Assembly: GCA_003151955.1 (NCBI GenBank)
Contig: PLZB01000035.1
Span: forward strand, 1,399 to 65,398
Origin: Acidimicrobiaceae bacterium
GTDB lineage: Bacteria > Actinomycetota > Acidimicrobiia > Acidimicrobiales > UBA8190
Direction: 5' to 3'
Length of the DNA stretch: 64,000 nt
Made by a program: the position numbers and the translations under genes. Below, one piece after another: positions 36,574 through 41,129 of the stretch; the stretch's first letter is position 1; each line of letters starts with the position of its first letter. The notes beneath the pieces are model-generated. The model was not told the DNA's origin and did no database searches. It saw only the letters and a program-made list of their open reading frames with translations.

Positions 36574-37316
36574 TGGCGTTGTCTCCTTGGGGTCCGGCCG
36601 ATGGCGACGACCTCGCCGACGGCGGGGTCCCCGTCGGGGGCGGCGGTGACGAGGTCGGGGGCGGGCTGGGGGTCGGTGGTGATGTCGGCGGCGAGCCCGG
36701 CGGTGAGGGACTCGAGGTCGGGGAGGCCGTCGCAGACGAGGTCGGTGAGATAGGCGGTCAGCCGGGCCCGGGTCATGGTCCGGCGCTCGAGCCACCAGGC
36801 CCCGGCGGCGAAGACCATGCCGACGATGCCGAAGGCCCAGGGCTCGGCGGCCCCGGAGTCGGCCCCGGCGGCCCGGAGGGCCTCACCCAGGATGAGGGCG
36901 ACATCCCGGCCCACCCGGGTCGTGAAGTCGTCGATGGTCTCCTGGAGGTTGCCCGGCTCGTTGACCACCCGCTGGGCCAGGAAGCGGTAGAGCTCGGGCG
37001 CCTGCTCCACGAAGGCCAGGTAGGCGTCGATGGCGTTGGAGACGACCTGGCGGGGCGGGGTGTCGACGCTCTGGAGGGCCCGCTGGAGGCCGGAATCGAG
37101 CCCCTCGAAGGCGTAGGTGGTCACCGCCGCGTAGAGCCCGCCCCGGTCCCCGAAATGGCGGTAGAGGATGGGCTTGGTCACCCCGGCCTCGGCCGCCATC
37201 TGCTCCATGGAGGCTCCGGGACCCTCCCGGCGGATGGCCCGGACGGCGGCTTCGACGAGCTCGAGGCGGCGGACCTGGCGGCGGACCTCCCGGTCCGGCG
37301 ACATCCTCGACTTCAT
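36570..37316 (-). CDS. TetR-family regulator
   Basis: A 248-residue TetR regulator. The DNA-binding head is RRLELVEAAVRAIRREGPGASMEQMAAEAGVTKPILYRHFGDRGGLYAAV (residues about 16-65, helix-turn-helix VTKPILYRHFGD). The rest is a helical ligand domain. The start codon sits one base from a double palindrome (37318-37347), so it almost certainly represses its own promoter and the downstream oxygenase gene. No Shine-Dalgarno precedes the first ATG; the second ATG (four codons on) has GAGG before it. The C-terminus extends unusually far and is rich in Asp/Pro. Confidence 0.9.
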   Translation of the reverse strand: MKSRMSPDREVRRQVRRLELVEAAVRAIRREGPGASMEQMAAEAGVTKPILYRHFGDRGGLYAAVTTYAFEGLDSGLQRALQSVDTPPRQVVSNAIDAYLAFVEQAPELYRFLAQRVVNEPGNLQETIDDFTTRVGRDVALILGEALRAAGADSGAAEPWAFGIVGMVFAAGAWWLERRTMTRARLTAYLTDLVCDGLPDLESLTAGLAADITTDPQPAPDLVTAAPDGDPAVGEVVAIGRTPRRQRQ

Positions 37317-37317
37317 G

Positions 37318-37347
37318 GTTACCGATAGTAACGTTACCTGGAGTAAC
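37318..37347. promoter_or_regulatory. Tandem TetR operator: two GTTAC-N5-GTAAC palindromes
   Basis: GTTACCGATAGTAAC (37318-37332) is followed directly by GTTACCTGGAGTAAC (37333-37347). Each is a perfect 5-5-5 inverted repeat and the junction GTAACGTTAC is itself a palindrome. The pair covers the -10 box and spacer of the TetR promoter and ends 1 nt from the TetR ATG. It also lies 18 nt upstream of the GH43-like GTG, so it may act on that gene too. Confidence 0.85.
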
Positions 37348-37353
37348 AGTCAA
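37325..37353 (-). promoter_or_regulatory. Sigma70-type promoter of the TetR/AurF-like operon
   Basis: On the minus strand: TTGACT (37348-37353), a 17-nt spacer, then TACTAT (37325-37330). The -10 box ends 8 nt before the TetR ATG at 37316, so the mRNA should be leaderless. The double operator lies on top of this promoter. Confidence 0.8.
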
Positions 37354-37365
37354 GGGGAGGGTCCG

Positions 37366-38475
37366 GTGTCCACACGTCGGCGGGCCAGCGGGCACAATGG
37401 AGTACCCGTGCGAACCGTTCGACGCCATCGGTGGTGGCTGGGGGGGACGGTGCCCCTCCTGGTGGCGGCCGCCCTGGCCCTGGGCGAGCCGTCGGTGGCC
37501 GACCCGCCCGGCCCGGGCACCGGCCCGACGACGACCGCCCTGCTGACCCCCCCGCCCACTCCCACCCCCTCCGACCCGGCCCGGATGATCCTCACCGGGC
37601 CCGACGCCCCCGACCCCTTCATCCTGGTGGCCCCGGGCGGCTACTACCTCTACGCCAGCGAGGGGAACTCTCCCCTGAACATCCCCCTCTACACCGGGAC
37701 CACCATCGGCAATTGGGGTCCGGTGACCGACGCCCTCCCGACCCTGCCGGCCTGGGCCCTGCGGGGCTTCACCTGGGCGCCGGACGTCCGCCAGGTCACC
37801 GGGGGATGGGCCCTCTTCTTCACCGGGGTCCTGAAGGGGGTGGACCCCACCATGGAGTGCATCGGGGCCGCCTACGGCACCGACCGGGGAGGGCCCTTCG
37901 TGGCCGACCCCAAGCCCTTCGTCTGCCAACGGGACCACCGGGGGTCGATCGACCCCCGGACCTTCCAGGACGAGGGCGGCCGGGTCTGGCTGGACTGGAA
38001 GTCCGACGACAATGCCGACCCGAACACCCCCGGCCCGGACCAGAACGGCATGACCGGGATCTGGGCCCAGCAGCTCAGTCCCGACGGCCGGTCCCTCCTC
38101 GGCACCCCCACCCGGATATTCCAGCCCGACCAGCCCTGGGAGGGGACCATCGTCGAGTCCCCCGACATGGTGGACGTGGCCGGGATCTACTGGCTCTTCT
38201 TCTCGGCCAATTGGTTCAACCAGCCCGACTACGCCATCGGGGTGGCCCGGTGCGCCGGCCCCACCGGTCCCTGCGCCGACGGGCCCGACCCCCTCCTGAC
38301 CTCGAACGACCAGGGCCAGGGCCCGGGGGAACCGGCCGTCTTCAGCGACGGCCAGGGGATCTGGCTCCTCTACAACCCCTGGAAGAGCAACGTCCCCCAC
38401 GCCACCCCACCCCGGCCGGTGGCCATGGTCCGGCTCGGCTTCAGCCCGGCCGGCCCCTACCTGGCCGCCCCGTGA
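37366..38475 (+). CDS. Secreted GH43-like five-bladed propeller protein
   Basis: A signal-peptide region (RRHRWWLGGTVPLLVAAALALG) near residues 19-40 is followed by a Pro/Thr linker and a beta-propeller of the GH43/GH32 superfamily. Candidate catalytic acids: Asp in DAPDPFILVAPGGYYLY, Asp in SIDPRTFQDEGGRVWLDWKS, and Glu in EGTIVESPDMV. Such enzymes cleave arabinan, xylan or similar side chains. GTG 37366 has an excellent AAGGGGAGG Shine-Dalgarno 5 nt upstream; 369 residues. It diverges from the TetR gene and shares its operator region. Confidence 0.8.
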   Translation: MSTRRRASGHNGVPVRTVRRHRWWLGGTVPLLVAAALALGEPSVADPPGPGTGPTTTALLTPPPTPTPSDPARMILTGPDAPDPFILVAPGGYYLYASEGNSPLNIPLYTGTTIGNWGPVTDALPTLPAWALRGFTWAPDVRQVTGGWALFFTGVLKGVDPTMECIGAAYGTDRGGPFVADPKPFVCQRDHRGSIDPRTFQDEGGRVWLDWKSDDNADPNTPGPDQNGMTGIWAQQLSPDGRSLLGTPTRIFQPDQPWEGTIVESPDMVDVAGIYWLFFSANWFNQPDYAIGVARCAGPTGPCADGPDPLLTSNDQGQGPGEPAVFSDGQGIWLLYNPWKSNVPHATPPRPVAMVRLGFSPAGPYLAAP

Positions 38476-38513: not shown

Positions 38514-39452
38514 ATGGACGGCGAGGAACCCGCCCACCACCACGACGAGCCCGACCACCACCACGTGGACGCCGCCGCCGACCAGCGGATCCTGGCCGTC
38601 ACCCTCGGCCTCATCGTCGCCTACCTGGCCGTCGAGCTCGTTGTCGCCCTCCTGGCCCACTCCCTCGTCCTCCTCGCCGACGCCGGCCACATGGTCACCG
38701 ACGCCGCCGCCATCGCCGGAGCCATCGCCGCGGCCCGGCTGGCAGCCCGACCCGCCTCCGGGAAGTGGACCTTCGGCCTGAAGCGGGCCGAGATTCTCTC
38801 GGCCGGCCTGAACGGCGTCACCCTCGTCGCCATGGCCGCCCTGGTCGTCACCGAGGCCGTCCGCCGCCTCCTCCACCCCCACCCCGTCCTCGGACCGGCC
38901 GTCCTCGTCGTGGCCGTGGTCGGCCTCCTCGTCAACGTGATGGCCACCACCCTCCTCCACCGGGCCGACCGGACCTCGATGAACGTCCAGGGCGTCTTCC
39001 AGCACGTCCTCACCGACCTCTACGGCTTCGCCGGGACGGTGGTGGCCGGCATCGTCATCGTCACCACCGGCTTCACCCGGGCCGACTCCATCGCCTCCCT
39101 CCTCGTGGCCGGCCTCATGCTCCGGGCCGCCTGGGGGCTCCTCCGGGACTCGGGCCGGATCCTCCTCGAGGCGACCCCGGAGGGCTTCGACCTGGCCGCT
39201 GTCCGGGCCCACATGCTCGAGACGCCCCATGTCACCGACGTCCACGACCTCCACGCCTGGACCGTCACCAGCCGCCTCCCGGCTCTCTCCGCCCACGTGG
39301 TCGTAGCCGACTGCTGCTTCGTCGAGGGCCATGCCCCCCAGATCCTCGACCAGCTCCAGGACTGCCTGGCCGGCCACTTCGACGTCGAGCACTCCACCCT
39401 CCAGCTCGAACTTGCCGGCCACAGCGACCACGAGCGGGACCATGGGCACTGA
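38514..39452 (+). CDS. Cation diffusion facilitator (CzcD/ZitB-type) metal exporter
   Basis: A CDF antiporter expected to export Zn2+ or similar ions. Six helices are visible. The two metal-binding HxxxD motifs are in LLADAGHMVTDAAAI (helix 2) and VFQHVLTDLYGFAG (helix 5). Both ends are His-rich (AHHHDEPDHHH at the start, HSDHERDHGH at the end), as in zinc-type members. ATG 38514 follows GGGGAGG; an in-frame GTG at 38472 overlaps the previous stop (GTGA) and is an alternative. 312 residues. Confidence 0.9.
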   Translation: MDGEEPAHHHDEPDHHHVDAAADQRILAVTLGLIVAYLAVELVVALLAHSLVLLADAGHMVTDAAAIAGAIAAARLAARPASGKWTFGLKRAEILSAGLNGVTLVAMAALVVTEAVRRLLHPHPVLGPAVLVVAVVGLLVNVMATTLLHRADRTSMNVQGVFQHVLTDLYGFAGTVVAGIVIVTTGFTRADSIASLLVAGLMLRAAWGLLRDSGRILLEATPEGFDLAAVRAHMLETPHVTDVHDLHAWTVTSRLPALSAHVVVADCCFVEGHAPQILDQLQDCLAGHFDVEHSTLQLELAGHSDHERDHGH

Positions 39453-39497: not shown

Positions 39498-39506
39498 GTG
39501 TACACT
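39498..39506 (+). promoter_or_regulatory. TGTACA operator over the -10 box of the antitoxin gene
   Basis: GTGTACAC (39498-39505) is a perfect palindrome with the TGTACA core known from yefM-yoeB operators. TACACT (39501-39506) makes a -10 box that ends 6 nt before the antitoxin ATG, so antitoxin binding would block a leaderless promoter. No good -35 is seen. Confidence 0.55.
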
Positions 39507-39512
39507 CTTTGC

Positions 39513-39770
39513 ATGGAAGTCGGCGTCCGGCAACTCCGGAACCATCTGAGCGAGTACCTCGACCATGTGAGAGATGGCGATGAGGTCGTGGTGACGGACC
39601 GGGGTGCAGCCGTTGCTCGGATCATCCCGATCTCAGGCGGTCGTGCCCTTGACCGCCTGATCGCCGAGGGCTTGGTCACTCGGGCCGGCACGCCCGTTCG
39701 GAGTACACCTGAGCATCGGGTCAAGGCACAGGGAACGATCAGCGACCTCGTGTCCGATCAACGTCGGTGA
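39513..39770 (+). CDS. Phd/YefM-family antitoxin
   Basis: An 85-residue antitoxin. The Phd/YefM fold is clear: VGVRQLRNHLSEYLDHVRDGDEVVVTDRGAAVARIIPI. The disordered C-terminus (TRAGTPVRSTPEHRV) should wrap the toxin. The ATG at 39513 is preferred over the GTG five codons upstream, which lies inside the operator. Its stop overlaps the toxin start (GTGA). Autoregulation by the TGTACA palindrome is expected. Confidence 0.9.
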   Translation: MEVGVRQLRNHLSEYLDHVRDGDEVVVTDRGAAVARIIPISGGRALDRLIAEGLVTRAGTPVRSTPEHRVKAQGTISDLVSDQRR

Positions 39771-40198
39771 TCGTCTACTTCGACACCTCGGCCTTCGTCC
39801 CGATCGTCATCGAGGAGTCGACGAGTCGGGTGGCCGCCCGTCTCTGGCGTGAAGCGGACCGGGTGGTGTCGAACCGACTGCTCTACGCGGAGGCCCGAGC
39901 AGCCCTGGCCATGGCCCACCGGATGAAGCGGATCGACGACCCAGGGCTCCGTGCCGCCGTCAAGGGTGTCGATGACCTCGTGGCCGAGTTGGACATGGTC
40001 GAGGTCACCGACGACCTCGTCCGCAAGGCCGGGGCCCACGCCGAAGCGCTCGCCCTTCGGGGCTATGACGCAGTCCACCTCGCCTCGGCAAAACTCGTCG
40101 ATGACGGTGACCTCGTCCTGGCCTCGGGCGACCGAGACCTCGTCAAGGCGGCCCGGTCGATCGGACTCGGGGTGGCCGACCTCCACCGGGATTCGTAG
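39767..40198 (+). CDS. VapC-type PIN-domain ribonuclease toxin
   Basis: A 143-residue PIN-domain protein. Acidic residues of the active site are visible: Asp in VYFDTSAFVPI, Glu in LLYAEARAAL, Asp in LRGYDAVHLASA, and Asp in LASGDRDLVKAA. VapC toxins cleave RNA, often tRNA or rRNA. It is coupled to the Phd-type antitoxin gene through a GTGA overlap, a common Phd/PIN combination. Confidence 0.9.
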   Translation: MIVYFDTSAFVPIVIEESTSRVAARLWREADRVVSNRLLYAEARAALAMAHRMKRIDDPGLRAAVKGVDDLVAELDMVEVTDDLVRKAGAHAEALALRGYDAVHLASAKLVDDGDLVLASGDRDLVKAARSIGLGVADLHRDS

Positions 40199-40590: not shown

Positions 40591-40941
40591 CTACAAAGCG
40601 AGGTGGAGCCGCAATGCTTCGTCAAGCATTCCGAGCAGCTCGGGCGGGAGAGCCCCCACTCTGCCGCCGATGCGCTCGACGTCCACCGACCGGACCTGCT
40701 CCGCCTGGGCCTTCGAGTCCCGGACGAGCCCCGTGTCCGGAGCCGGGAGCCGGACCTGGAAGGGGTAGACCCGGCTGAGGTTCGACGTCACCGGAACGAC
40801 GGTCACCACCCCACGTCCGTTGCGCTCGGCTGTGCTGTTCGCTCCGTCGTTGCTGACGATCACCACTGGCCGCCGCTTGTTCGCTTCCGAGCCGTGCACC
40901 GGATCGAGGTCGACGAGGCGGATCTCGCCTCGTCGCATCAT
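40591..40941 (-). CDS. MazF/PemK-family endoribonuclease toxin
   Basis: A 116-residue MazF-like toxin. MMRRGEIRLVDLDPVHGSEA, KRRPVVIVSNDGAN, VVTVVPVTSN and QAEQVRSVDVERIGGRVG are the family blocks, with the conserved Arg and Thr/Ser of the active site. It should cleave mRNA at short sequence motifs. ATG 40941 overlaps the antitoxin stop (ATGA); a second ATG follows directly. Confidence 0.9.
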   Translation of the reverse strand: MMRRGEIRLVDLDPVHGSEANKRRPVVIVSNDGANSTAERNGRGVVTVVPVTSNLSRVYPFQVRLPAPDTGLVRDSKAQAEQVRSVDVERIGGRVGALPPELLGMLDEALRLHLAL

Positions 40942-41129
40942 CCCAACCCGTCGTGGGCCGTGGCGTCCCAGGCCTCGGCCTCGTCCCCGCTCGACCACTC
41001 GTTCCAGGCGTCTTCGTAGGCTGGGCCCAGCTCAGCGGCCCGGAGGAGCCGAACGGCCTTGTGCACCACAGCGGAGCGCGATGCGAACCCCTGGGCGTTG
41101 GCGTAGTCGTCCAGGAAGCTGGAGCACAA
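40938..41129 (-). CDS. Ribbon-helix-helix antitoxin partner of MazF, apparently N-terminally truncated
   Basis: The frame gives FLDDYANAQGFASRSAVVHK, then AVRLLRAAELGPAYEDAWNEW and a stop overlapping mazF. This is the helix-helix part and toxin-binding tail of a CopG/RHH antitoxin. The usual first strand (pattern MKxSVSLP) is missing: upstream the frame reads SPAEGSRSRLCSS, with only a TTG at 41129 as a possible start. That would remove the DNA-contacting strand. Either the start is unusual, a frameshift is present, or the 5' end was lost when the bicupin gene at 41184 came to lie next to it. Confidence 0.65.
   Translation of the reverse strand: MCSSFLDDYANAQGFASRSAVVHKAVRLLRAAELGPAYEDAWNEWSSGDEAEAWDATAHDGLG

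Follow-up and report, generated by a model that had tools for sequence, protein, structure and literature searches.

Fused GTTAC-N5-GTAAC dyads as a predicted operator within a putatively leaderless promoter of a TetR-AurF gene pair in an Acidimicrobiaceae genome

Results and Discussion

Gene content of the locus

The window analysed here, a stretch of 64,000 nucleotides from an Acidimicrobiaceae genome, carries on its minus strand a gene for a TetR-family regulator followed by a gene for an AurF-type protein, and on its plus strand a divergent gene for a GH43-like protein (Table 1). The regulator matched TetR_N with 37.7 bits against a Pfam cut-off of 24, which places its DNA-binding domain in the TetR family, and TetR_C_32 with 75.7 bits (cut-off 27). 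Its structure model (pLDDT 89.0) has ten helices and presents the all-helical fold of this family, including the ligand domain at the C-terminus. FasR of Mycobacterium tuberculosis (6o6n, 6o6o, and 6o6p) is the closest solved relative both by sequence (E 2e-14) and by fold; FadR, DesT, and EthR are also among the top folds, and behind FasR the ranking mixes several fatty-acid regulators with other TetR structures. The protein was not assigned to the FasR equivalog, NCBIfam NF053731, against which it scored 71.2 bits for a cut-off of 330. The product of the second gene matched PF11583 with 152.5 bits (cut-off 29.6) and is assigned to that family.

A Shine-Dalgarno-like GGAG stands before the GTG codon of the GH43-like gene. 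Directly after this gene, on the plus strand, lies a gene for a cation efflux (CDF) transporter (38514-39452), and further on a Phd/YefM antitoxin gene is followed by an overlapping PIN-domain toxin gene (39498-40198). A PemK/MazF-like toxin gene is located on the minus strand (40591-40998).

Table 1. Genes and predicted regulatory features around the TetR start in the window
Feature	Position	Strand	Remarks
AurF-type (PF11583) diiron oxygenase-like gene, 322 aa	35605..36573	-	ATG overlaps the TetR stop codon (ATGA)
TetR-family regulator gene, 248 aa	36570..37316	-	TetR_N, TetR_C_32; nearest solved fold FasR
Shine-Dalgarno-like AAGGAGA for the second (AurF-type) gene	36582..36588	-	
TetR ATG	37314..37316	-	transcription start predicted, from geometry, at or within ~2 nt of its A
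ATG-proximal operator dyad (predicted), GTTAC-TATCG-GTAAC	37318..37332	-	also supplies the -10; centre T
-10 element TACTAT	37325..37330	-	inside the proximal dyad
Upstream operator dyad (predicted), GTTAC-TCCAG-GTAAC	37333..37347	-	fills most of the -35/-10 spacer
-35 element TTGACT	37348..37353	-	
Secreted GH43-like gene, divergent	37408..38475	+	adjacent; regulon membership not supported

Two fused dyads at the TetR start

A preliminary description of this DNA had placed two perfect GTTAC-N5-GTAAC dyads, joined end to end, inside a leaderless TetR promoter, and their coordinates, spacing, and fusion proved correct by sequence. Read on the minus strand, the order is TTGACT, the upstream dyad, the proximal dyad, a single C, and the TetR ATG. 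No base separates the two dyads, and the pair ends 1 nt before the start codon. TTGACT and TACTAT are 17 nt apart, and 8 nt (37324-37317) lie between TACTAT and the ATG at 37316. This TTGACT-17-TACTAT arrangement was the only promoter-like site found in a scan of positions 37200-37520, for which shuffled sequences gave a mean of 0.0.

With at most one mismatch allowed, the window contains two dyads; 100 shuffles averaged 0.08, and none had two. The genome search that the preliminary description had called for returned these two as the only perfect copies among 4,566,085 bases. Dyads with one mismatch occurred at four other places in the genome, below the nine of a backwards control; since these sites are not above the control, they give no evidence for further sites, and no wider regulon is claimed.

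Comparison across relatives

TetR matches turned up in 87 of 148 related genomes searched, and scanning named genomes yielded 80 loci. The comparison covered 57 non-redundant loci, the window included, which represent the stronger matches of the 148-genome search plus the named-genome loci and not every match; 56 streptomycete loci were tallied apart. Loci L154 and L170 were dropped for want of a TetR hit, identical-sequence copies were merged, and L168 is a fragment. Dyads with at most one mismatch were sought around the TetR reference point, from 450 nt before it to 90 nt past it. The TetR start codon of L139 is GTG, and that of L033 was scored as a GTG 3 nt past the dyad, with an in-frame ATG directly at the dyad.

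A dyad was present near the TetR start in 29/57 loci, and in 20 of these 29 it abuts an in-frame ATG or GTG, ending 0-3 nt before it. Sixteen of the 20 abutting loci carry two dyads, with a pitch of 15 in eight and of 16 in the other eight. The spacing within the dyad is strict: the 35 perfect half-site pairs found at spacings between 0 and 15 were all N5. These 35 perfect dyads fell in 29,294 nt near TetR starts, against two in 483,868 nt elsewhere, both of them in L099 before a gene that we take to encode an acyl-CoA dehydrogenase. On the phylogenetic tree the abutting state requires at least seven changes on well supported branches, which indicates several gains or losses.

The dyad was absent from 28/57 loci, among them L161, L035, and L036, which hold the closest TetR relatives (~60% identity) and have two changes in the recognition helix. 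Their lack of a dyad may represent rewiring, or else the site could be dispensable. In the dyad-less sister group the recognition helix reads VAKPILYRVF instead of VTKPILYRHF, and the helix change accompanies the dyad loss. Members L004-L006 of this group still present TACGAT a few nt before the GTG start, and judged from sequence they may be leaderless too; near the TetR start of L004 there is a CCGGT-N4-ACCGG pair, a possible different operator.

Scanned across the class, the pattern of a dyad before an ATG matched 21 places in 19/395 genomes, and a control pattern also matched many. Of the 21 places, four, the window's among them, are TetR starts of this clade, and one is a gene for the membrane protein MEM28. 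The scan is too unspecific to be used alone, because low-GC genomes and the control give chance hits.

Promoter signature inside the dyads

The abutting loci share promoter features that fall inside the dyads. The symmetry of a bound dimer puts no constraint on the centre base of a dyad. This base is T in 20/20 start-proximal dyads and in 3/16 upstream dyads (Fisher 2.4e-7, a value that overstates the case, as the loci are related), and in the proximal dyad it is the last base of a TACNNT -10 element. TACNNT was found in all 20 abutting loci, 7-10 nt before the start codon used by the script, too close for a leader to fit between (PMC4633059). A -35 element with at least 5/6 of TTGACA at a spacing of 17 or 18 was present in 14/20 loci, against 123/17,080 random windows (0.7%). 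In L038 and L041, where the pitch is 16, TTGAC stands one base nearer to the upstream dyad, which preserves the spacing of 17 nt; the related loci L049, L055, and L144 have a spacing of 18. The conservation of this geometry in relatives argues, independently of the window, for operators placed within a leaderless TetR promoter.

Genes associated with the dyad

Labels such as MEM28, GatB, MFS, and ACAD are our own names for query proteins; MEM28 had no Pfam match, and the other three identities are presumed from their sequences and not from a family search. A dyad was found in 17/18 loci with AurF or MEM28 near TetR, against 12/39 of the others (Fisher 6.8e-6, again overstated by the relatedness of the loci); L048 has AurF and lacks the dyad. 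The ATGA overlap of the TetR and AurF-type genes recurs in L034. The overlap and these counts support the AurF-type gene as a co-regulated target, as the preliminary description had supposed. Of six AurF loci that lack a linked TetR of this clade, five (L180-L183 and L187) are without a dyad, and in L179 a mismatched one lies distant from the gene. AurF is thus not generally under this site, as no dyad lies near the gene in such loci.

MEM28 genes were seen by dyad-bearing TetR genes in L041 (515 to 2348 nt after the reference point), L038, L051, and L008, and further in L134, L135, L137, and L141. In L154/L120, where no TetR adjoins the MEM28 gene, a centre-T dyad stands directly before the ATG of that gene. 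In the three related loci L043, L138, and L050, a gene presumed to be of the major facilitator type lies upstream of TetR in the same direction.

The other target named in the preliminary description, the divergent glycosidase under the same ligand, was not supported. The two start codons are only 91 bp apart, so any GH43 promoter there would lie near the dyads, which could then repress both the TetR-AurF operon and the GH43-like gene through one ligand. This shared control is nevertheless unlikely. The sole promoter-like site in 37200-37520 faces TetR, with none on the plus strand, the GH43-like gene carries the GGAG mentioned above before its GTG at 37408, and L034, with the same TetR-AurF order, has a different upstream gene, which we take to be GatB-like. 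No GH43 hit was obtained near TetR in the 72 fetched loci, copies included (tblastn), and for lack of such a counterpart the shared control is unsupported. The earlier interpretation is supported for the operators in a leaderless promoter and for the AurF-type target, and is unsupported for the inclusion of the glycosidase in the regulon.

Alternative readings of the sites

The junction of the two dyads forms a perfect 10-bp palindrome in eight loci, and the binding unit could therefore be this central zero-spaced palindrome, GTAACGTTAC, with the outer half-sites as extras. This is hardly credible, since the junction measures 0 nt in eight loci and 1 nt in eight whereas the N5 spacing is invariant in all 35 perfect pairs, and the N5 pair is also kept in loci with a single dyad. 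For the use of the sites by another regulator of the genome, we found no supporting point, the adjacent TetR being only the natural candidate; this explanation is very improbable, given that the genome has no further perfect sites, that 35/37 perfect dyads in the compared loci are near a TetR start, and that the AurF loci unlinked to TetR either lack the dyad (5/6) or, as in L179, carry it mismatched and at a distance.

Activation by TetR from these sites was also considered because FasR, the nearest solved fold, is an activator at its own target, fas-acpS, according to PMC7382501. This, too, is very improbable: the dyads cover the spacer and the -10 element, where a bound dimer would block the polymerase. 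FasR also recognises another DNA site, and the FasR oligonucleotide, as given in that paper, contains neither GTTAC nor GTAAC, which also speaks against placing the protein in the FasR equivalog.

Proposed mechanism and ligand

On the basis of sequence and comparison, the site very probably serves a leaderless TetR-AurF operon as its autoregulatory operator-promoter, and most likely TetR represses this operon, its own. Two TetR dimers would bind the dyads on roughly opposite faces of the helix, their centres being 15 or 16 bp apart, cover the spacer and the -10 element, and bar the RNA polymerase. A ligand would free the dimers from the dyads; transcription would then start at or beside the A of the TetR ATG and yield a leaderless repressor mRNA. 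Translation of AurF would use a Shine-Dalgarno site of its own, together with coupling via the ATGA overlap.

The likeliest class of ligand would be a long-chain acyl-CoA or a similar, acyl-CoA-like lipid, a guess that falls somewhat short of probable and serves as a lead only; it comes from FasR as the nearest fold, with other fatty-acid regulators next among many TetR structures, and from the acyl-CoA dehydrogenase-like neighbour in Streptomyces.

Comparison with known systems

The Streptomyces homologues present the same recognition helix, TKPILYRHF, as the protein here (56/56) and the same dyad, perfect in 46/56 and within one mismatch in 56/56. In all 56, the dyad precedes a divergent gene that we take to encode an acyl-CoA dehydrogenase. 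They differ from the window in that the dyad lies at least 120 nt upstream of the TetR reference point and adjoins a TTGAC motif that points towards the dehydrogenase gene, and the second dyad is degenerate. As the dyad is so far upstream of the TetR start, leaderlessness is not general among these regulators.

The tetR gene of Tn1721 has a ligand, an operator, and a target unlike those here. Its leaderless repressor mRNA is named in PMC3017554, which describes the leaderless acuR-acuI-dddL operon of Rhodobacter sphaeroides with a mapped start site. That source shows AcuR to be similar in its arrangement, with a TetR-family repressor gene placed first, an inverted-repeat operator over the promoter, and downstream genes with their own Shine-Dalgarno sites. 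The mRNA there starts at the acuR AUG; here a leaderless start is predicted, and the geometry fits. According to the same text, AcuR differs in having one operator, TAATAGAC-N6-GTCTATTA, against two N5 dyads here, in having other downstream genes, and in its ligand, which was shown to be acrylate. With the repressor gene first and the predicted operator over the promoter, the present locus would be of the AcuR type by likeness in working and not by homology.

The principle of a leaderless TetR repressor gene heading its operon, with the operator over the promoter, is thus known from AcuR, as PMC3017554 describes it. The GTTAC-N5-GTAAC operator and the TetR clade look new; the operator, sought in six written forms, was not found in the open-access literature and may be in print in subscription papers. 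The fused twin dyad is a feature peculiar to this system.

Significance

More broadly, and only tentatively, these regulators might form an old actinobacterial clade in which operator and promoter are one: a ~40-bp cassette before regulator genes accompanied by AurF or MEM28, responding to lipid-type ligands. In such a cassette the proximal dyad would carry the -10 element and the spacing to the start codon, and the upstream dyad would act as the spacer. For a so far uncharacterised clade of regulators in Acidimicrobiia and Streptomyces, the analysis offers an operator that is sharply defined and testable, and ties AurF-type oxygenases and the undescribed membrane protein MEM28 to that clade. 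The predicted cassette is short enough for trial as a sensor part, and the case illustrates to what extent the same bases can serve both an operator and a leaderless promoter.
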